A stretch of DNA of 64,000 nucleotides. Source: Suillus spraguei. Its lineage: Eukaryota > Basidiomycota > Agaricomycetes > Boletales > Suillaceae. The notes below the pieces were generated by a model, which saw only the letters and a program-made list of their open reading frames with translations, ran no database searches and had not been told where the DNA came from. The position numbers and the translations under genes are program-made. Shown here one piece after another: positions 37,494 to 61,395 of the stretch; the first letter of the stretch is position 1; each line of letters starts with the position of its first letter. The stretch lies in NCBI GenBank assembly GCA_016800925.1, contig JABCPU010000290.1, forward strand, positions 1 through 64,000, given 5' to 3'.

Positions 37494-38330
37494 TCTGGTC
37501 CTTGATGGACGAAACCTTGCAATCCAGCAGCTGCTTCTCAACGAAGACGAGGCTAAACTCTTCGATGACGATGAAAGACTTAAGGTGCTCGCTGCTGCTA
37601 TCATTGCTGGGAGTGAGGTATCACGACAAGAGCGCATTGACACTCGGCACCCACATCGTTTGTACCTTTGCCGACCCCAACTACTTCCAAATCCTCGCAT
37701 CAATACCCCATGGAAGGTGCTATACGACAGTCAACATGATAGAGCCTTCATCACTACAATGGGTGCATCAGGAAATTCACACATTCCTTGACGTCCTTAT
37801 GCGGATTATTTACACTTAACTGCTTGGTGAAATTGAATCTACTTGTCCAAATTTCAATGTGAATGAATTCAGAAAAAAAAAGTTGAGATATATTAATATA
37901 ATGTTTTATTGTATTTGCACTCAAAAAATATAAATATGCAGGTGAATGATGTGAGAGAGAGCAAACAAGTTTTGAGATAATGAGTTAAGCTGATTAAGCA
38001 TGTTAAGGAATGTGTGATTCCTGATGTGTTGATGTGTCCACCTTCTCCTTGCTACTTACTGCAGGCTTTGCGCAGGCATGGTATGAGACACCAATTCCTC
38101 GTGAGGATGTCTCTGCGCATGGAACTTCAAGGATAGATAAACGCTCCCTTGATGCTGCAGGGGCACTTGGGCTTGTGCTACACTATCTTAACTCTACTAT
38201 CCAAAGTCATCGCACGCATATGCGTTTCCTGCGCCATCATAGCGCAACTGAGGAATCGCCTGGCTATGAGGGACAATCATGGATTGGGAGGGGGCAATGT
38301 CAGACATTTGAGCGACTAAATATGTTTAGG
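37494..38330 (+). pseudogene. PIF/Harbinger-like transposase fragment split by a MITE
   Basis: Coding stretch before the MITE: LAIQQLLLNEDEAKLFDDDERLKVL ... RINTPWKVLYDSQHDRAFITTMG. Directly after the MITE (38027 on) it resumes in phase with VDVSTFSLLLTAGFAQAWYETPIPRED and SLDAAGALGLVLHYLNSTI. Together this is the N-terminal region of fungal DDE_Tnp_4-type transposases as I remember them. The catalytic DDE domain is not found, so the element cannot move on its own. Confidence 0.6.
37766..38026 (+). mobile_element. MITE copy 1 (261 bp)
   Basis: Terminal inverted repeats beginning CATCAGGAAATTCACACATT and ending in the complement. The copy sits inside the transposase fragment; the interrupted codons and a TG on both sides suggest a 2-bp target duplication. 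Interior is A/T-rich with poly-A and a TATATTAATATA stretch. Same orientation as copy 4. Confidence 0.85.
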
Positions 38331-38399: not shown

Positions 38400-38672
38400 C
38401 ATCAGGAAATTCACACATTCCTTGACGTGCTTAATCAGCTTAACTCACTTATCTCAAAACTTGTTTGCTCTCTCTCACATCATTCACCTGGCATATCTTA
38501 TATTTTTTGAGTGTGAAATATAATAAAACATGTATATTAATATATCTCAACATTTTTTTTCTGAATTCACTCACATTGAAATTTTGGACAAGTAGATTCA
38601 ATTTCACCAAGGCAGTTAAGTGTAAATAAGTCTGCATAAGGGCACGTCAAGGAATGTGTGAATTTCCTGATG
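38400..38672 (-). mobile_element. MITE copy 2 (273 bp)
   Basis: Same family as copy 1 in the opposite orientation, with near-perfect terminal inverted repeats of about 30 bp. Flanked by AA on each side (possible 2-bp target duplication). It ends only a dozen bases before the LINE target site. Confidence 0.88.
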
Positions 38673-40577: not shown

Positions 40578-42195
40578 CAGTGGCTCAAAAAACTGTCCGC
40601 ATGTTTTGACATTTTTCACTATCTATGATATTGTGTGAGAATGAACAAATTCCTCAAGGACATACTTATACCACATTGTAGTATGGCTTCAGGGCTTTTA
40701 TTTGAGCCCTACACCGTGGGAATCGGCGGAGATATGGTGGAGATATAAGGCTTATAAAATGATGACTCATGTGGACAGTTTTTTGAGTGTATATTAAAAC
40801 TATATAAATCATTATTTATGACACCATAAGAATCATGCCACTATTATATAAATTATAAAGTGGTGTCATTATGTTATTTTATGACTATATCTAACTATAT
40901 AAACCAGAATATCTCATGTATCATAGTCATGATCACCATGAAAGCCATCTCCTCTGCTCAAAGAGATAATATCCTCTCTCTGTCTTATGCTGGCCTCTCT
41001 GCTCGCCAAATTTCCTCTAGAACTGGAGTATGCAAGTCCACTGTGGCCAAGTTCATCAAAGAAAGCCACCCAGACAAGGAAAACTCTTGTGGAGGACGTC
41101 CATCCAAGCTTACCTCTACTGACAAAAGGGCTATTATCCAACATATCACTACAGGAAAGGCTGATAATGCTGTCCAAGCCACCCATTATATCAATTCCAC
41201 CATCACTACCCCTGTCTCTTCACAAACTGTGAGGAATGTTCTCAAGGCAGCTCATCTCAAGGCAGTAACAAAGAAGAAAAAGCCTCTTCTCTCCATCAAA
41301 CATAGGCAGAGAAGACTAGCCTTTGCCTTAGCTCATCAACACTGGACTGTAGAGGACTGGAAGCGTGTTATATGGTCAGATGAGACCAAAATCAATAGGA
41401 TTGGGTCAGATGGGAAGGTGTATGTATGGAAAAAGAAGGGAGATGGCCTAACAGACAGAGAGGTTAATGGGACTGTCAAGTTTGGAGGAGGTTCTTTAAT
41501 GGTATGGGGCTGTATGGGATGGAATGGTGTGGGAATGCTTGCTGAGGTTGAGGGGAAGATGAATGCTGAGCAGTATGTGGACATTTTAAATGACCACTTG
41601 CTGCCTAGCTTGGCAGAATCAGGGATTGATGAAGAAGATATCATTTTCCAACAGGATAATGATCCCAAGCACACATCCAGAAGAGCTAGGGAATGGTTTG
41701 AAGAACATAACATCAATGTTCTTGACTGGCCAGCACAGTCTCCTGATGTCAATGTCATTGAACATCTCTGGGGAACACTCAAGAAAAAGCTTCAAGCCTA
41801 TGAAAACCCCCCTAAAGGAGTATGGGAGCTTTGGGAGAGAGTAGCAGTGGAATGGGGGAAGATCACAGCTGAGGATTGCCAGAAATTAATTGAGAGTATG
41901 CCTAGAAGGATAGAGGCAGTAATTAAAGCCAAGGGAGGTCATACAAAATACTAGAATACCTGGTTATTACTGTAAAATACTTGAGTCAAAAAAACTGTCC
42001 GCATGAGTCACCATTTTGTGAGCCTTGTATCTCCACCATATCTCCACCGATTCCCACGGTGTAGGGCTCAAATGAAAGCCCTGAAGCCATACTACAATGT
42101 GGTATAAGCATGCTTTTGAGGCATTTGTTTGTTCTCACACAATATTATAGATAGTGAAAAATGCCAAAACATGCGGACAGTTTTTTGAGCCACTG
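40578..42195 (+). mobile_element. Tc1/mariner transposon, apparently intact
   Basis: 1618-bp element flanked by TA on both sides (40576-40577, 42196-42197), inserted in LINE ORF1. Terminal inverted repeats are long, about 210 bp (40578-40788 and 41982-42195), starting CAGTGGCTCAAAAAACTGTC. Each repeat also carries an inverted copy of its own tip at its inner edge (GACAGTTTTTTGA), so the ends are nested palindromes. It encodes one uninterrupted transposase. The outer ~26 bp of the two repeats are identical. Confidence 0.93.
40938..41954 (+). CDS. Tc1/mariner DD34E transposase
   Basis: Cut-and-paste transposase of about 338 aa from ATG 40938 (MKAISSAQRDNILSL); the frame is open to 40860 upstream. 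N-terminal helix-turn-helix region (LSARQISSRTGVCKSTVAKF, then GGRPSKLTSTDKRAI). Catalytic triad visible: D in VIWSDETKINRIGSDG, D in IIFQQDNDPKHTS and E in VNVIEHLWG, with 34 residues between the second and third acids. No stop or frameshift; this may be an active copy. Single exon, as usual for the family. Confidence 0.94.
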   Translation: MKAISSAQRDNILSLSYAGLSARQISSRTGVCKSTVAKFIKESHPDKENSCGGRPSKLTSTDKRAIIQHITTGKADNAVQATHYINSTITTPVSSQTVRNVLKAAHLKAVTKKKKPLLSIKHRQRRLAFALAHQHWTVEDWKRVIWSDETKINRIGSDGKVYVWKKKGDGLTDREVNGTVKFGGGSLMVWGCMGWNGVGMLAEVEGKMNAEQYVDILNDHLLPSLAESGIDEEDIIFQQDNDPKHTSRRAREWFEEHNINVLDWPAQSPDVNVIEHLWGTLKKKLQAYENPPKGVWELWERVAVEWGKITAEDCQKLIESMPRRIEAVIKAKGGHTKY

Positions 42196-42376: not shown

Positions 42377-45300
42377 ATGCCAGAACAACCCAACGACCAA
42401 TTAGCAGGGGGCGACAACTTACAAATCTGGCAACAAAATCTAAGGAAATCGCTCCCAGCCTGGGAGCACATGCTCAAGGACCTGGACCCGAATGTATATG
42501 ACATCGCCTGTATACAAGAACCATATCTAAACCCAGTAAAATTAGCTAACGCCTCCAACCTAAGACAGTACTGGGATGTAATATACCCGACAGACCATCA
42601 TACCAGCCCAGAAAGATCGCAAGTAATAATGCTAGTTAACACAAAACTCTCGAAGAACGACTGGCACACCGTCACGATCAAATCATCGAACGTAATGGCA
42701 ATCGAACTGACGGGCAACTTCGGGAAGGTACGCATGTACAACATATATAATGCCTGTGATCACAATAACACACTAATATTTCTCGAACGGCACATGGCCA
42801 CGGAGCGCAACACAAGGCAGGCGCAGCGCACCGCTAAAGGCGAACAAGGCGCAAACCAGAGTACATAATGTGGATGGGCGATTTCAACCGCCATCACCCT
42901 TTGTGGGAACCACAGCATAACACACACTTATTTACAGCAGCAAATCTAAACGCTGCAGCAGTACTAATAAACATATTGTCTATGTATAACCTTGTACAGA
43001 TACTCCCACCGGGTCTAACTACCCTAGAAGCCTCTAATACAAGAAACCTAACACACCCGGATAATACATTCTGCTCCATGCAAATGGAGCAATGGATCAG
43101 CAAATGCAGCGTCGAACAACACCTCCGCCCAGTTGTCACAGACCACTTCCCAATCATAACGGTCATAGACATAGAACCAGAACGCGTGACGCACGCCCCC
43201 AAGCACAACTATCACGCAACGGATTGAGAAGAGTTCAGAGAGTACCTAGCCAGCAAGCTAAGCAATATCCCACCACCAAATGAACTAACTACCCACGTAC
43301 AGTTCCAGGAAGCATTGACAGCGCTGACGAGGTGCATTTTGGAAACAGTAGAAGCCAAGGTCCCTAAATCCAACCCCTCCCCATACGCGAAGCGCTGGTG
43401 GTCAAAAGAACTAGAGGCAGAGCGAAAAGGGGTAAGGAAACTAGCTAGAGACTCAAGAAAACACCTAGCAAGACGGAACGACCCGGTACACGAGGAATAC
43501 AGAGTGGCGCGAAACAAACTCGTGGAGAACATCAAACGAGCAAAGACAGACCACTGGAACGAATGGATGGAATCGCTAACACCAAAGGGGATCTGGACCT
43601 TTCATAAGTACGCAGCTAGTACACCAACTGACCAAATCCACACCAGAATAAAAACGTTACAAGACCAACAGGCTGACGGCCAAAATGGTGTAACACAGGA
43701 TAACGCTCGAAAAAGCGAACTGTTATATAACGTCTTTTTCAGATCACTGGTGGAAAACGACTCAGTAGACCCAGACTTCAACTATGACCCCCCAATATGC
43801 GATTTCGAGCCCATAATGGACCAGCAAATCTACCGCGCAATAGCCAAACTAGCTCCTCATAAAGCCCCAGGCTGAACGGAATTCGCAACATAGTCTTTAC
43901 CAAGTGCGCGGATCTAATAGTACCTCACATGGCACCAATCTTCCGAGCTACATTCACACTGAAAATCTACCCGAACGAATGGAAGTGCTCATCAACGATA
44001 GTGTTAAGAAAACCCAGAAGGCCAGACTACAGTGTGCCAAAAGCGTATAGACCAATAACGCTCCTGGATACCATGGCTAAGCTTCTATCCTCCTGCGTAG
44101 CAGACAATCTCACGTACATTGCAGAACAACACGGCCTATTTCAGCAACGCACTTCGGTGGACGGCCAGGCAGATCGACGGTAGACTCACTCCACATGTTA
44201 ACGAAATTCATAACAGACACTTGGGCATCGAAAGACGATCACGTCTCACTACTATTCCTCGATGTAAAAGTGGCATTCCCAAGCGTAGTTACGAACAGAC
44301 TCCTGCACATTCTGAAAAGAAAAGGGATACCAACGCAGTACGTCGAATGGTACAGAAGAAGACTCGAAAATAGAACCACCCATCTCTTCTTTGAGGACTA
44401 CCAATCGAAACTCTTCAAGGTCCCAGACGGACTCGATCAAGGATGTCCATTGTCCCCAATAGCGTTCATTTTCTACAACTCAGATGTACTGGAAGTCGCT
44501 AACCCCAACCCACGCAAAGGAGAACTGAGCCTGGGCTTCCTCGATGATGTCGCGTTAGCAGCCAGAGCGAAATCATATGAGGAATCGAATGAAAAGCTCA
44601 GACACATGATGGAGAAAAGGGGAGGAGCGTTAGAATGGAGTGAACGGCACCACGCTGAGTTCGAACTTGAGAAAACAGCACTAATATGTCTATCAAGGAA
44701 GCGCATACCGGATGAACAGAACCCACGCAAGACCACACCAGAACGCCGCCCAGCTATCACCATCCGCAATTGCACCATTCAACCATCGAAATCACACAAG
44801 TTCCTGGGCATGATTGTAGACGAGAACCTCAACTTCAACGAACACGCGGCCTACGCACTTGCAAAAGGAACAAAGTACGCACTAGCATGTATGAGGGTGA
44901 TCCGACTGACAAAAGGAATGCATGGAAGGGCGATGAAACGGCTGTACGAAGGAGTCATACTGCCAAAAATGCTCTACGCAGCGGATGTCTGGTGCTCAGG
45001 CCTCGTTGCAAAAAGGAGAGGGAAACAGAGAGGGGGCAGGGGACCGAAAGGCTTCGCCACACAGATGTCGAGAGTTCAGCGCATGGCCACGACCCTAATA
45101 ACAGGAGGACTAAGATCAACTTCCAATGATATGTTAGACGCGCACGCTAACGTCTTACCGTTTCAACAGACACTCCGCATGGCAACACTCCCAGACACTC
45201 ACCCACTAGCAAAGGACATCAGGTCAGCATACATGTTCGGCGCAAAAAGGGAATTCAAGGGGAGAAAACGACACCCGTCTCCACTGCACAAACTGACGTA

Positions 45301-46414
45301 CGAGTACCAGATAGACCCCGACACCACAGAGAAGATTAGGCTGGTCAGACACTATCCAAAGTGGACCCCAGACACCAAAACGCACATCGCAGACAAACCA
45401 GAGAGAGCAGCGGATGAAGACCTATCAGCGGAAGAAGACATAAGAGCATACTCAGACGGATCTTCGATCGAAGGAGGAGTGGGGGCAGCAGCAGTGATCA
45501 TGCGAGGCGAACAAGTGATTAAGAGTCGGAGATTCTACCTGGGCAAGGACACGGAGCACATGGTGTATGAAGGAGAGCTTGTGGGAATGATTCTGGCAGT
45601 TCAGCTTCTAAAAGAAGAGGGAGGAGAAAGGGGGGGTACCATGTCACTGGGGGTAGACAATCAGGCAGCCATCCGCGCAACATCAGCATTCCGTTCACAA
45701 CCAGGACACTACCTGATGGACATGTTCCACGACGACCTATGCAGGGTCATCCCAGCCAACGATGGAAGGAAACTCATCATCAGGTGGACGCCAGGGCATA
45801 AGGGCATCCCGGGCAATGAAGCAGCGGACGAGCAGGCGAAAGAGGCAGCGAGAGGGAAATCATCGGGAACGAACGAACTCCCGAAATCCTTGCTAACAAA
45901 ACACGGTGAAACCAAGGAACTGCCACGTAGTAAGTCAGCGATCAAACAGACATACCACCGCAGAATAAAGGACGAGGCGACGGAAATAGCAAACAACTCA
46001 CCAAGGTTCACCGCCCTGTGCACCATAGACCAGTCAGCTCCTTCCAACAAATTCGCTGCAAAAACTGCATCGTTACCAAGGAAGCACAGCTCGCTCCTCT
46101 TTCAGCTCAGAACGGGTCATATAGCGCTCAACAAACACCTACACCGGATATCGAAGAGCCAATCAGCCAAGTGCAAAAACTGCAACGCGCACGAGGAAAC
46201 AGTACATCATTTCCTACTAGTATGCCCCACCTTCACCAGACAGAGAGACGCCGTGCGTCTCGAAGTAGGCCCGCGCAAATACAATATCAAGCACTTGCTC
46301 AATGATACTCAAGGAATGAGAGCAACCCTGAAATACATCGCACGTACAAGACGCTTCGAGCAGACTTTCAGAGATGTTACCCCCCCCAAGGAAAAAGAGG
46401 AAAGGAGAGAATAA
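42377..46414 (+). pseudogene. LINE ORF2 (endonuclease - reverse transcriptase - RNase H), mutated
   Basis: Domains in order: APE-like endonuclease (LQIWQQNLRKSLPAWEHML ... DIACIQEPYL ... MWMGDFNRHHPLW ... VTDHFPI), reverse transcriptase (YRPITLLDTMAKL, HFGGRPGRSTVDSLH, LLFLDVKVAFPSV, DQGCPLSPIAF, catalytic FLDD), RNase H (AYSDGSSIEGGVGAA, E and D residues, WTPGHKGIPGNEAADEQAK) and a C-terminal CKNCNAHEETVHHFLLVCP zinc motif. Lesions: frameshift near 42865, TGG-to-TGA nonsense at about 43226, frameshift near 43875 (one C apparently missing) and frameshift near 44150. From 44195 to 46414 the frame is open (739 codons). Confidence 0.9.
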
Positions 46415-50226: not shown

Positions 50227-50459
50227 CATCAGAATTCACATTCTTGACATGCTTAATCAGCTTACTCACTTATTCAAACTTGTTTTCTTCTCACATCATT
50301 CACCTGCATATCTTATTTTTTGAGTGCGAATACATAAACATGTTATTATATTTCATTTTTTTTTTGAATTCATTCACGTTGAATTTTGGACAAGTAATCA
50401 ATTCACAAGAGTAAGGTAATAATCCGCATAAGGCACGTTAAGAATGTGCATTCCTGATG
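50227..50459 (-). mobile_element. MITE copy 3 (233 bp, eroded)
   Basis: Same family and orientation as copy 2, but 40 bp shorter. Many of the differences are single-base losses within runs or dinucleotide repeats spread along its length. Ends still read CATCAG and CTGATG. Confidence 0.8.
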
Positions 50460-50859: not shown

Positions 50860-51778
50860 TGTCACGAAAAGTCATGTGATCTAGATGTATTTGCATGAGG
50901 TCTATCTTATGTAGATATATAAATTTTAAATAAGAGAAATACAGTTGAATCCACAGTGCAGAATCCGATCCATAATCGCATTCTCGAGGCGCTTCGACGA
51001 TTAAGCTCATAATCCGATTCTCACGTCCAAAATTGTTTTTTGAATCGTATTCTAAATCGCTCCATAATCGTTTACTCTGACTACCACTATTAATGACTAT
51101 GGAAATGACATCAAAGTCAAAACTCAGAAGGGTTTGGAATGGTTCGGGAAGGCCGAACCAGAACCGAACCGTTTGGGATGGCCTAGAACCGAGAACCAAG
51201 GACCGGACCGCGGACTAGTCAGACAACTGGTGCGGATCCTGTTGCTCTCAAACGCATGGCTGCTGTGATGCCACAAGGGATCTCAAATTCATCAATGACA
51301 CTGGCATGTCGCAATATGAGGTGTCTTGCTCGCAATCTGAGGTGCCTTGCTCGCAATATGTCTACCAGTAGCACTCTGGCAAGGTGCGGAGATTAAAATA
51401 ACCATCGGTTCTTCCATTAATATTGTAGGTTGGTGAAATGAAATTGCACTTAATGGCTCGCAAAGAATTATAACAGCATATTTGGATTTTTATGCACGTT
51501 TAGCTCCGGTTAAGACGTGAGAGCTCCTCACACTACCACTGGCTAAAGTCAGCCAACTGTGAATGTATTATGATGATGAAGCTTTCGCAGCGGACTCATT
51601 TGTATCAGTCACCAGACACCTGCCACGCAATTCATCCGAGTCAGATATTGTGTGTTGTATCGTGGCGGCACCCATCTTGAAATTTTTGACCACTGCTGGC
51701 TGTTGTCTGCTGACCATGATCTGCGCATATATCCAATTATTGTTTGTAGAAGAGGCGAAGATCGGACCTGCGAGAATG
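50860..51778. other. Gene-free region upstream of the repeat-peptide gene
   Basis: About 900 bp. A frame at 51563-51823 has no motif and overlaps the promoter of the next gene, so I do not call it. Confidence 0.4.
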
Positions 51779-51784
51779 TATAAA
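51779..51784 (+). promoter_or_regulatory. TATA box of the repeat-peptide precursor gene
   Basis: TATAAA within atgtataaagg, 61 bp before the ATG at 51845; short 5' UTR implied. Confidence 0.6.
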
Positions 51785-51844
51785 GGTCTTCTCGGTTTTT
51801 CAGTAGAGTGCATTGACGAATAGTCACTCCTCTTATCCATAAAC

Positions 51845-53482
51845 ATGCAGATTTCTTTGCTCTTGAGCGCACTTGTATCTCTTGTCATTCTTGGTGCAGC
51901 GTCACCCATGCCAGGAGCCATCTTGGAACATTCTTGTGAGTATTCATGATCATCAGTAGTATTATATTCACTCAGATGGACTGCAATGCACCACTCAGAC
52001 AAGCGAGAGGAGCTTTCTCCAGAATACTTGAAGTATGGTTCAACCGGAGGTGAGATATAATATATCCATCATTTATATTCATTTACCAATCGTAAATTTT
52101 ACACCAGGCGAGAAGCGAAAGGAGCTTTCCCCAGAATACTTGAAGTATGGTTCAACTGGAGGTGAGATATAATATATCCATCACTTATATTCATTTACCA
52201 ATCGTACATTTTACACCAGGCGAGAAGCGAAAGGAACTTTCCCCAGAATACTTGAAGTATGGTTCAACTGGAGGTGAGATATAATATATCCATCATTTAT
52301 ATTCATTTACCAATCGTACATTTTACACCAGGTGAGAAGCGAGAGGAGCTTTCCCCAGAATACTTGAAGTATGGTTCAACTGGAGGTGAGATATAATATA
52401 TCCATCATTTATATTCATTTACCAATCGTAAATTTTACACCAGGCGAGAAGCGAAAGGAACTTTCCCCAGAATACTTGAAGTATGGTTCAACTGGAGGTG
52501 AGATATAATATATCCATCATTTATATTCATTTACCAATCGTACATTTTACACCAGGTGAGAAGCGAAAGGAGCTTTCTCCAGAATACTTGAAGTATGGTT
52601 CAACCGGAGGTGAGATATAATATATCAATCATTCATATTCAATGGCCAATCGTACATTTTACACCAGGCGAGAAACGAGAGGAGCTTTCTCCAGAATACT
52701 TGAAGTATGGTTCAACTGGAGGTGAGATATAATATATTCATCATTTATATTCATTTACCAATCGTACATTTTACACCAGGCGAGAAGCGAAAGGAACTTT
52801 CCCCAGAATACTTGAAGTATGGTTCAACTGGAGGTGAGATATAATATATCCATCATTTATATTCATTTACCAATCGGACATTTTACACCAGGCGAGAAGC
52901 GAAAGGAGCTTTCTCCAGAATACTTGAAGTATGGTTCAACTGGAGGTGAGATAATATATCCATCATTTCTATTCATTTACTAATCGTACATTTTACACCA
53001 GACGAGAAGCGAAAGGAGCTTGCTCCAGAATACTTGAAGTATGGTTCAACTGGAGGTGAGATAAAATATATCCGTCATTTATATTCATTTACCAATCGAA
53101 CATCTTACACCAGGCGAGAAGCGAAAGGAGCTTTCTCCAGAATACTTGAAGTATGGTTCAACTGGAGGTGAGATATAATATATCCATCATTTATATTATA
53201 TTCATTTACCAATCGCACATTTTACACCAGACGAGAAGCGAAAGGAGCTTGCCCCAGAATACTTGAAGTATGGTTCAACTGGAGGTGAGATATAATATAT
53301 CCATCATTTATATTCATTTACCAATCGTACATTTTACACCAGACGGGAAGCGAGAGGAGCTTTCTCCAGACTACTTGAAGTATGGTTCAACTGGAGGTAA
53401 GATATAATATATCCATCATTTATATTCATTTACCAATGTACATACGTATCCTGCTCCAGAGAAGCGCAAGGACCTGGAGTGA
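51845..53482 (+). CDS. Secreted repeat precursor with kexin sites, one peptide unit per exon
   Basis: Spliced model of 270 aa in 15 exons: 51845-51935, 51999-52049, then twelve 54-nt exons starting at 52108, 52220, 52332, 52444, 52556, 52668, 52780, 52892, 53002, 53114, 53231 and 53343, and a final exon 53460-53482. The exon sum is 813 nt, no stop. Residues 1-20 are a signal peptide (MQISLLLSALVSLVILGAAS); a pro-segment then ends in HSYKR. Thirteen units follow, each of the type KELSPEYLKYGSTGGE bounded by KR; the protein ends EKRKDLE. Kexin cleavage after KR and C-terminal trimming would release thirteen 14- to 16-residue peptides. Variants: first residue E in units 1, 4, 7 and 13, K in the rest; LAPEY in units 10 and 12; SPDY in unit 13. 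All repeat exons are symmetric (phase 1-1), so exon gain, loss or skipping keeps the frame. Architecture recalls alpha-factor and dikaritin precursors. Peptide function unknown. Confidence 0.88.
51999..53459 (+). repeat. 112-bp exon+intron tandem array
   Basis: Thirteen copies, each a 51-54 bp exon plus an intron of about 58 bp (starting gtgagatataatatatccat, ending ttttacaccag). Unit length is 112 bp except near 53.0-53.3 kb (110, 112, 117). Introns are about as conserved as exons, and the E-K-K order of the first residue in units 1-9 suggests duplication in blocks of three (336 bp). Confidence 0.92.
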
Positions 53483-53904
53483 GGTCACATTTAGTGATCT
53501 CACCGACACCTACTAGGACAGCAAACAAGCTGTGTAGCATAAACATCGGTGTTTTTCGTAGCAATGTGTCTCACTTCCCCGTATCGTGTCAGGTCCATAG
53601 TTATGTCAAATCAATAGGGGAGAAATGTATTCAGTTGATCTGGTCTCCTACTTGATGATAAACAGTCATTCGTTCTTTCTTACGGAGTTGATCATATCAG
53701 ACGCTCAACAGAGAATAAAACACGTGGAGGAAAAGCTAGTAGGTGCGGGCAGGACTGTTTCCCGGTATTAAGATTCGAAGGTCAAGGAGAGATGCCCTCT
53801 TATGTAGTAGAGAGACCGACAAATCGCATCCTAGATCATACAACATGTATTGGTACCAAAATGATCATTTAACACCCATAAATCCACTTAGGCAGCTGCA
53901 AAAT
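53483..53904. other. 3' flank of the repeat-peptide gene
   Basis: About 420 bp without a supported gene. Probably holds the 3' UTR (aataaa-like gagaataaaacac near 53710). Confidence 0.4.
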
Positions 53905-54345
53905 ATTTCTCTAACACGCTCTTCGACACGACATGGGGCATTGTCCTCGTTTCAAATTGTACGTAACCCCGCTCTGCGGAAGAAGTACGTCTCCCGGGCT
54001 AGTGCTGTCAGTAGTTGTTGTCACACTCGCTGGAACGGTGGGTACGATGACAGATGATGCAGTCCACTCAGCATCAAGTGTCTCGATCAGCTTTACGGGG
54101 GGATTGGGGAAGGCTTCGACGAGCGCCTGCGCCTTGCTTGCAGTCCGATTGAACAAGTAGATGCGCTGGGCCCTCAAGGACTGAAGCACAAATATGGCGG
54201 CAGCAGGCGCACCGATGGATGGCGCACGAGAGCAGGTGGGTTCACGAATGCCGAACTACTCGGTATTGTCTCCGAGGACATGGTTTCCTCTGTTCGGGCC
54301 AATCACAGGAGAGTAGTCATAACGGCTCTAGTCCAACGAGTCCAA
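53905..54345 (-). pseudogene. Fragment of AROM (shikimate dehydrogenase domain)
   Basis: Minus-strand translation LQSLRAQRIYLFNRTASKAQALVEAFP ... SVIVPTVPAS ... SPGDVLLPQS matches the shikimate dehydrogenase part of the pentafunctional AROM polypeptide (prechorismate pathway). Upstream, in another frame, lies YSPVIGPNRGN followed by GDNTE and a TAG where Trp is expected, then FGIREPT. No other AROM domain is present, so this is a truncated, mutated relic. Confidence 0.75.
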
Positions 54346-54687
54346 TAAGCTCTGCAGAAGGCATTATCTGAAGTATAACACTCGCCTTTTAACTGTTGTG
54401 GAAAAAACTAGCGGATTGTTGGTCGAGTCTGAGTCCGACTCGAACAGCCCTTGATAGAGATGTACGAGCTGGACTCAAGTTGACATGCATTACAGCAAAA
54501 TATGTCTTTCAGTTGCAGTGACAAAAATAAAAGTGCCAAACACAAATCACTCGTCCAAGATATTCTCCGGAAGTATTCAGGAGTAGCCAATGATACGTTT
54601 GTCAACGCCACATCGGTTACAGTTCTTCAAACCCATCTGTAAGCAACATTCAATGCGAGAGAATGACAGCACATACATGTAACCTGA

Positions 54688-56025
54688 TTACTTAACGCGT
54701 TGACCGTCGATGCAACGCCGCTGCCTGCCTGAACTCCTGTAATGGTAATGTTCCATAATTTTCATGTCTAACTTTTCCCACTTTCCCAAGCGATTCATGC
54801 TCTTGACATCGTGTCGATGATTGTCGCGTCAAACGAACCTACCTGCGAAGATTTAGGCCGGATAATGATAGAGCAATCCTTGAACGTCGCTGAAAGAAGG
54901 TATGCTATTAAATAATGCCGGAGGTGTTCAGGGTTCAGGACTGTGTGGTCCCAGGAATGATAATCAGACTGGTAAACTTTGACGAAGTCTTCCCATTCCT
55001 CCACGGCAGGATCAGGAACTGAAGACCCAATACCGTCATATGGGCAATCTGGTGATGTCTGTGTGTACAACTTGGATAAGCCCTCTATATCAAGGATATC
55101 CAGTGTTCGTTGTAAAGTCGAAAGAAGGGGAAGGACGGGACTGTCAAGAAGTGGCTGCGAAAGAACGGATATGAACGATTCCCGGAGGTCCTGGACGTCA
55201 GTCAATTCGTTCGCAGTGAAGAAGAGTGCCAGCAATTGCATCGAGTGGTCCTATGCAAACCTATCAGGAATATGTGAGCGTGATATACTGAAGACGTACA
55301 TCATCTGGGTTTGCCATTCTGCCCTCGACGAAGAATCGCAAGTCATTGAGAGACCCATGCTCTCATACCACCCGGCCCACAAAGCACCTAGGCCCTTCTA
55401 ACACCGTCTGATTGCGGGAAAAAAAAGGTCCAACGGATAATATGTCGTACCGAAACCCCCTTGTTCCATTTTGAAGCTGGTGTGCATACAAAATCTGCAT
55501 GTTGCTGTCTTCAGAGCAGCAGTCGCAGGCGAGAGATGACATTCTGTAGGTAAAAATCCCCATGTCGGCTAAACAACCAATCAGATACAGATATTCTGCC
55601 AATAAACTGGCGACAACCTGGATTTCAATCGCGATGGACGTGCCTCCAATGAGATCCGTGGCTAACACACCCTTACTCCTGCAAACATCAATCTGATCCT
55701 TCTCTCTGCTGGGCGATCGCCGTTGCGTAGGACAACAAACGACCTAAGCCAATCTTCGTCGAGCACCACCACCGCAAGACTCGGCAAGAACTCAGAGGGA
55801 ACAAGTTTTGAGATGATGTTTTCCTGGAAGGCGATCATAGGATAATCTAACTGTTCAGTATTTTTTTCGAGTAGCATGTTGTCTGACGACCCGTGAGCGA
55901 CTTTACGGAGACGTAGACATGATCAGAGAATTTGACATTGTGAGGTCCTTGATACCAGAATACGATAGTCGCCGCTCCCTCAGAGACGTGTATCCAATCC
56001 TGAGGTTTTGTTTCAGTAATCAACG
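54688..56025 (-). pseudogene. Inositol-pentakisphosphate 2-kinase (IPK1-like), frameshifted
   Basis: Minus strand. Pieces in family order: QDWIHVSEGAATIVFWYQG, LRLRK region, PMIAFQENIISKLVPSEFLP, VLATDLIGGTSIAIEIQ, then after a 49-bp intron GFLPTECHLSPATAALKTATCRFCMH, TTYYPLDLF, DLRFFVEGRMANPDD, an intron, then HSMQLLALFFTANEL ... HLRHYLIAYLLSATFKDCSIIIRP and KSMNRLGKWEKLD. The enzyme phosphorylates inositol pentakisphosphate to phytate. As written there are at least five single-base frameshifts, most explained by loss of one base in a CC, CCC or AA run (near 55915, 55700, 55390, 55375, 54805). The N-terminal exon is not resolved. Either a pseudogene or a sequence with homopolymer errors; intron signals look intact. 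Confidence 0.75.
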
Positions 56026-61121: not shown

Positions 61122-61395
61122 CATCAGGAAATTCACACATTCCTTGACGTGCCCTTATGCGGACTTATTTACACTTAACTGCCTTGGTGAAATTGAATCT
61201 ACTTGTCCAAAATTTCAATGTGAATGAATTCAGAAAAAAAAAAGTTGAGATATATTAATATACATGTTTTATTGTATTTCGCACTCAAAAAATATAAGAT
61301 ATGCCAGGTGAATGATGTGAGAGAGAGCAAACAAGTTTTGAGATAAGTGAGTTAAGCTGATTAAGCATGTTAAGGAATGTGTGAATTTCCTGATG
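61122..61395 (+). mobile_element. MITE copy 4 (274 bp)
   Basis: Best-preserved member of the family seen at 37.8, 38.4 and 50.2 kb, same orientation as copy 1; about 30-bp terminal inverted repeats and a CA dinucleotide on both sides. Confidence 0.88.

Follow-up and report, generated by a model that had tools for sequence, protein, structure and literature searches.

A Suillus spraguei gene predicted to carry each peptide of a KEX2-processed repeat protein on its own exon

The window, i.e. the whole 64,000-nt stretch of Suillus spraguei DNA analysed here, carries at 51845–53482 a gene which we read with high confidence as a spliced gene of a KEX2-processed repeat protein (KEP) with one peptide per exon; this confidence covers the gene architecture and the class, and not the role. 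The original prediction of a secreted-type leader followed by 13 units, which are separated by KR and recur with an exon-plus-intron period of 112 bp, was confirmed by Tandem Repeats Finder and by the splice model, in which the splicing is predicted. More interesting than the 13 units is that introns and exons are decoupled across a part of the gene family, the introns being conserved where the peptide-coding exons are not.

Gene model and class of the precursor

A single strong long-period tandem array was found in the window, at 52001–53443, with a period of 112, 12.9 copies and 93% matches, and it was clearly the best of the three rows given by Tandem Repeats Finder. The DNA unit of the array consists of one exon (54 nt, the first one 51 nt) and one intron (usually 58 nt). 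The splice model of 51845–53482 comprises 15 exons (91, 51, 12 x 54 and 23 nt), which join to 813 nt and encode 270 aa with 13 units, and 14 putative introns of 56–63 nt, all of them (14/14) GT..AG. When the frame was read through, an in-frame stop was met inside 13 of the 14 introns, which excludes the single-exon reading of the array. Automatic splicing with a donor pattern resulted in 10 exons because two introns of the gene deviate from the pattern used; the 15-exon model was taken. All the repeat exons are of phase 1-1, as had been claimed for them. The features of the gene are the following.

51779..51784, + strand: TATAAA box, read directly, 60 bp upstream of the ATG; at a similar position in several paralogs
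51845..51935, + strand: exon 1 with the signal-peptide-like leader MQISLLLSALVSLVILGAASPMPGAILEHS (splice model, hydropathy, leader alignment)
51936..51998, + strand: intron 1, 63 nt, GT..AG, phase 1 (splice model; P0016, a paralog with a public model, is spliced alike)
51999..53396, + strand: repeat array of 13 exons, the first of 51 nt and the other 12 of 54 nt, each with a single core and a single KR site, separated by 12 introns of 56–63 nt (Tandem Repeats Finder, splice model)
53397..53459, + strand: last intron, 63 nt, GTAAG..CCAG (splice model)
53460..53482, + strand: last exon, EKRKDLE-stop (splice model)

The precursor begins with the leader MQISLLLSALVSLVILGAASPMPGAILEHS, which is followed by YKR, 13 units matching [KE]EL[SA]P[ED]YLKYGSTG.. 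and each ending in KR, and KDLE before the stop; one KR site is thus located ahead of the first unit and one behind each of the 13 units. The units are 17–18 residues long including KR. The last core, EELSPDYLKYGSTGE, has 15 residues and the remaining cores have 16, and two tyrosines are present in every unit (13/13). The mean hydropathy of the leader residues 4–18 was 2.43, i.e. signal-peptide-like as judged by hydropathy, and the alignment of seven family leaders resulted in a mean column identity of 81%. The last exon of the paralogs L011 and L012 continues into a 15-residue tail, DLESGHIYSDLTD[VT]Y, which the window gene has lost. The computed monoisotopic masses of the linear peptides KELSPEYLKYGSTGGE and EELSPEYLKYGSTGGE were 1756.852 Da and 1757.800, respectively; the mass of a cross-linked form would be 2.016 Da lower.

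The exon and intron lengths were collected from six array models: the window gene, L010, L011, L012, C318 and C908, the last two being presumed haplotypes of one gene. The lengths of all the internal repeat exons (50/50) were divisible by three (51, 54, 63, 75 or 78 nt), and the introns measured 52, 53, 56, 58, 59, 63 and 64 nt. The public S. spraguei protein P0016 (BDR07DRAFT_1457014) was identical to the splice model of the three-unit paralog at C924:147438. We infer from the sequence that the introns of the window gene are real. The divergence between the units of the window array decreased in the order pS 0.120, intron p 0.054 and pN 0.024, which is the pattern expected of a conserved peptide; within-array divergence was determined with units of fitting length only (13/13 in the window gene, 6/10 in L010, 4/4 in L011). 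The case for splicing is weaker with the C382 copy (L010, C382:17500-22500), since GC replaces GT at 3 of its 11 donors. Some repeat exons of L010 begin with GCGAG or GTGAG, so donor and exon start are alike.

Near-identical repeats (13 units) and dibasic kexin sites between them were found in the precursor, and the genome encodes kexin: the P_proprotein domain scored over the cut-off on contigs C925 and C1201, of which the latter is probably the other haplotype of the C925 copy. By its repeats and KR sites the gene is a predicted KEP gene, its leader being signal-peptide-like. The suggestion of a new class of fungal peptide was not supported as put forward, because the signal-peptide-like leader, the repeats and the KR sites assign the precursor to the KEPs, a class already described, and hypothetical proteins of Suillus in public databases are related to it. 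The ascomycete alpha-pheromone type of KEP was rejected: the STE13 dipeptides XA/XP are absent behind the kexin site, where the units begin with KEL or EEL. A match of the precursor to Pfam DUF3106 (over the cut-off, E 9.6e-7) was taken as spurious, an effect of repeats or composition.

No report of an exon-per-repeat KEP or fungal RiPP was recognised in the literature searched, which consisted mainly of openly accessible papers. Neither 'intron' nor 'exon' is used in the main text of PMC7329392 and PMC6339444, and in the text of PMC9769878 'intron' appears once, in the method of cDNA cloning. The KEP screens described there were run on predicted proteins (PMC6339444, PMC9769878). A gene with 15 exons, mostly of 54 bp, is easily missed by gene prediction, and comparable genes may have escaped notice in other fungi. 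With the 270-aa precursor as a protein query, no homolog was found among the 7999 candidates scored.

The gene family in Suillus and the decoupling of introns and exons

Members of the family were located in at least 14 places of the genome by DNA and protein searches. A 97-aa single-unit relative from C320, used as a query, matched 14 proteins, and all those with a species name (12/12) were from Suillus. The profile search resulted in 61 proteins at E<=1 among the 7990 candidates scored, which were those with the most words in common, with Suillus again as the only genus among those with a species name. The core DF[IV]IY[AS]WYDGPG was present in 14/14 proteins (P0001-P0014) found with a query containing that core. 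Judged by the sequences, the function of this core is likely to be conserved, whereas there is wide variation among the remaining cores of the family.

The number of units per gene was 1 (C536:31 kb), 3 (C924:147 kb), 4 (C924:88 kb), 10 (C382) and 13 (window). The leader of the gene at C536:31 kb is deleted. The gene at C536:51 kb, examined by eye, has a three-fold duplication with the inner introns shortened to about 15 nt. C36 and C967, compared by eye, look like a haplotype pair; C318 and C908, compared by alignment, are presumed to be haplotypes of one gene.

Exon-plus-intron arrays of two types occur in the family, the window type and the C318 type. The C318 array has the core DELETNLVGYVDYGGGSGTSR and consists of 13 repeat exons, each 78 or 75 nt long, and of introns measuring 52 or 58 nt; the last exon holds three copies of EELDAGQNDYAVAA separated by KR; both repeat styles, 13 peptide exons and 3 last-exon repeats, are thus present in one precursor of this sister gene (L069/L070, C318:126000-129300). 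The C908 form (L071, C908:3300-6500) has 11 peptide exons and 2 KR-separated repeats in the last exon. The site between the units is IKER in C318 and C908 and not dibasic KR, therefore it is uncertain whether kexin would cleave these units; some products in PMC9769878 possibly originate from cuts after single arginines. C908 was 99.06% identical to C318 (2965/2993 columns) and was shorter by 259 bp and by one 48-bp repeat, the 259 bp being two 130-bp units less one base. The claim that the peptide number can change by whole units was thus supported by these two presumed haplotypes of the sister gene, which differ by two units. If they are alleles, as presumed, their difference is the best evidence for such a change.

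In two of the three paralog comparisons the repeat intron was far more conserved than the core exon. The difference was largest between the window gene and L012, where, with one repeat unit taken from each, the intron was 97% and the core exon 46% identical (9 gap columns); the corresponding values were 92% for the leader exon, 86% for the first intron, 87% for the last intron, 88% for the 5' flank and 91% for the 3' flank. With L011 the intron and the core exon of the window gene were 95% and 74% identical, and between L011 and L012 97% and 54%, respectively. The closest copy, L010, differed in the opposite direction, with 96% for the repeat exon and 91% for the repeat intron.

The paralog L011 combines one window-type exon and three divergent exons with near-identical introns. 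Its unit 1 had 2–5 differences of 51 to each of the 13 window units. Between its units 1 and 2, a pair chosen post hoc, 11/51 exon sites and 0/58 intron sites differed (Fisher p 1.2e-4). Between the window units and units 2-3 of L011 the exon pS was 0.41 versus an intron p of 0.061. The exons thus also differ strongly at synonymous sites, for which selection acting only on the peptide is insufficient as an explanation. The decoupling would be better accounted for if exon cassettes were exchanged between the conserved introns or if the introns underwent conversion.

With <=3 mismatches allowed, the initial 35 nt of the repeat intron were found in 38 places of the genome, all of them in family genes (C382, C470, C536, C924), and the reversed control pattern in 0 places, which rules out chance. 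A mobile intron of the introner type was excluded, since 38/38 pattern matches as well as the other intron hits were confined to family genes.

The core exon and the following intron would have been amplified together as one 112-bp unit. Phase-1 introns bound each in-frame cassette, therefore unequal recombination could add or remove peptides without frame damage, and such recombination between the near-identical introns is a plausible route to the gain or loss of whole peptides. The skipping of an exon would likewise leave the reading frame intact. The further proposal, that the near-invariant introns serve as recombination arms by which core exons are duplicated, lost and swapped among genes as cassettes without risk to the frame, is put forward as tentative. 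Gene conversion of the introns alone or selection on the intron sequence would be the alternative. Whole-exon changes in copy number, together with the fact that some introns are better conserved than the peptides, offer a direct test of how secreted peptides diversify in an ectomycorrhizal genus.

Segmental duplication and neighbourhood

The gene is located in a duplicated segment.

50955..55754, no strand assigned: duplicated segment containing the gene, ~4.8 kb, with an inverted copy, 96% identical, on the same contig (C470) at about 65.1-69.8 kb

The gene copy in the inverted segment (C470, 67-69 kb) is interrupted by numerous one-base deletions, which affect its exons as well as its introns, and was read as badly assembled or dead; because of these deletions it was omitted when exon lengths and divergence were counted. 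C470 is unlikely to be a hairpin artefact of the assembly, since the inverted match 50955-55754 ends on both sides within longer compared sequence, and the self-comparison of the window gave no inverted match of >150 bp within 55–64 kb. An allelic relation of the window copy to C382 was excluded: the homology begins at window position 50955 although the sequence beyond was compared. The flank of C382 and the second C470 copy is common to both over the full compared length.

These surroundings bear on whether the window gene could be a decaying or non-expressed tandem array, the frame of which is kept by recent homogenisation alone. The deletions in the inverted copy, the loss of the C-terminal tail in the window copy, and the position on a duplicated segment with transposon genes 5–11 kb away would all agree with decay. 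However, the 13/13 units, the splice sites and the KR sites are intact in the window gene, pN is lower than both pS and the intron divergence within the array, and the internal repeat exons are multiples of three throughout the 50 cases. Decay is accordingly regarded as improbable, and the reading as a spliced KEP gene is retained.

The 3' part of the duplicated segment contains a fragment resembling inositol-pentakisphosphate 2-kinase (54795-55250, - strand), and this part was also found, whole or partial, at C382, both C924 places, C536:31 kb and C481. Elsewhere in the window, a ~1.9-kb element is present in six copies at 5010-25937, five in one orientation and the sixth inverted, with 79-87% identity; one ORF piece of the element was without a Pfam match. 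A ~275-bp MITE-like repeat occurs in both orientations at 37766-38026, 38400-38672, 50227-50459 and 61122-61395, with 82-97% identity within the window, and is also present on C320. A Tc1-type transposase (DDE_3) and a LINE-like reverse transcriptase with RNase H were located at 40860-41954 and 44195-46414, respectively.

Processing, possible role and known systems

By the gene model and by analogy with the KEP class, the pre-mRNA would be spliced at 14 short introns and the precursor would enter the secretory pathway by means of its leader. Kexin would then cut behind each KR and a carboxypeptidase would trim the basic residues, releasing up to 13 near-identical peptides of 15-16 residues with two tyrosines each. 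Across the family, many different cores are carried on one conserved leader. Most likely the product is a rapidly diversifying secreted peptide which may act extracellularly, its target being either the pine root or other microbes.

A linear, unmodified effector or signal peptide in contact with pine roots or other fungi is given about an even chance. The KEP features of the precursor are consistent with it, and S. spraguei is an ectomycorrhizal partner of white pines (PMC5065116). In other agaricomycetes, KEP peptides have been detected in a linear, minimally modified form, which speaks for a linear product and against a cross-linked one, but kep knockouts of Coprinopsis cinerea in the same work were without a detectable phenotype (PMC9769878).

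The other possibility considered was a dikaritin-type RiPP precursor, the released peptides of which would be cross-linked via tyrosine residues by UstYa (DUF3328) oxidases that act in trans and are encoded at other places of the genome. At least 45 UstYa (PF11807) pieces in at least 26 gene-like clusters were found on 13 contigs of the genome. Eight of these clusters lie on one contig, C536, at 32–184 kb, which is a possible UstYa-rich peptide-modification region in Suillus. For two family genes on C536 the distances to a UstYa piece are 775 and 3944 bp. The chance of at least 2/12 loci lying within 5 kb of UstYa was 6.4e-4, assuming independent loci, and that of at least 1/12 was 0.037. One of the two neighbours, the UstYa gene at C536:55 kb, is open exon by exon and carries the HQLHC motif. 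However, the two C536 family genes are perhaps not independent; one is leaderless and the other has cut-down introns. Furthermore, no UstYa piece was detected on the contig of any of the other 12 family places, including C470, where there was no PF11807 match, in searches that give lower bounds.

Tyrosine, which such cross-linking would use, is present in all the 13 cores of the window gene. The peptide list was derived from 61 of the 64 family proteins, with pro-region and tail peptides included and three proteins left out for having no recognisable leader start. Among the 151 distinct KR-delimited peptides, in which tyrosine made up 6.5% of the residues, 105 contained Tyr, 66 at least two Tyr, 48 the YxxY motif and 9 Cys; 46 were without tyrosine, many of these being derived from the shared pro-region. 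Of 1680 basidiomycete KEPs, 103 are accompanied by DUF3328 genes (PMC7329392), and 16 UstYa-like genes of Pleurotus have been linked to probable dikaritin production (PMC8893723), while confirmed dikaritins are treated as ascomycete products (PMC9233826, PMC12048977). Since UstYa genes neighbour two of the relatives and the window contig gave no match to them, dikaritin-type cyclisation is only possible, and we consider it less probable than a linear peptide.

In comparison with known systems, the precursor shares with the described KEPs (Le Marquer 2019, Umemura 2020, Vogt 2022) a secretion-type leader, the near-identical repeats, the dibasic sites and the diversity of cores, and differs in that each repeat has its own exon and its own intron. 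The dikaritins (ustiloxin, phomopsin, asperipin) and the epichloecyclins are similar in having a kexin-processed, multicore secreted precursor with tyrosine cores, and UstYa genes are near two of the Suillus family members. The differences are that UstYa had no match on the window contig and that the products of the Suillus family are predicted from sequence. The MSDIN cycloamanide genes of Amanita also combine a conserved leader with a core that is hypervariable across the gene family, each of them carrying one core which is processed in the cytosol by prolyl oligopeptidase. The honeybee apidaecin gene encodes a multipeptide precursor by several exons, each coding for one peptide (PMC3415428); the product is an insect antimicrobial peptide and the likeness considered is one of gene architecture. 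Among fungal genes, that of the Tremella mesenterica metallothionein TmMT encodes a repeated-unit protein by 10 short exons (63-105 bp), although its product is a metal-binding protein and not a cleaved secreted precursor (PMC4755600). The exon-per-peptide architecture is not new to biology, but, as far as could be seen, it is new for the KEP class.
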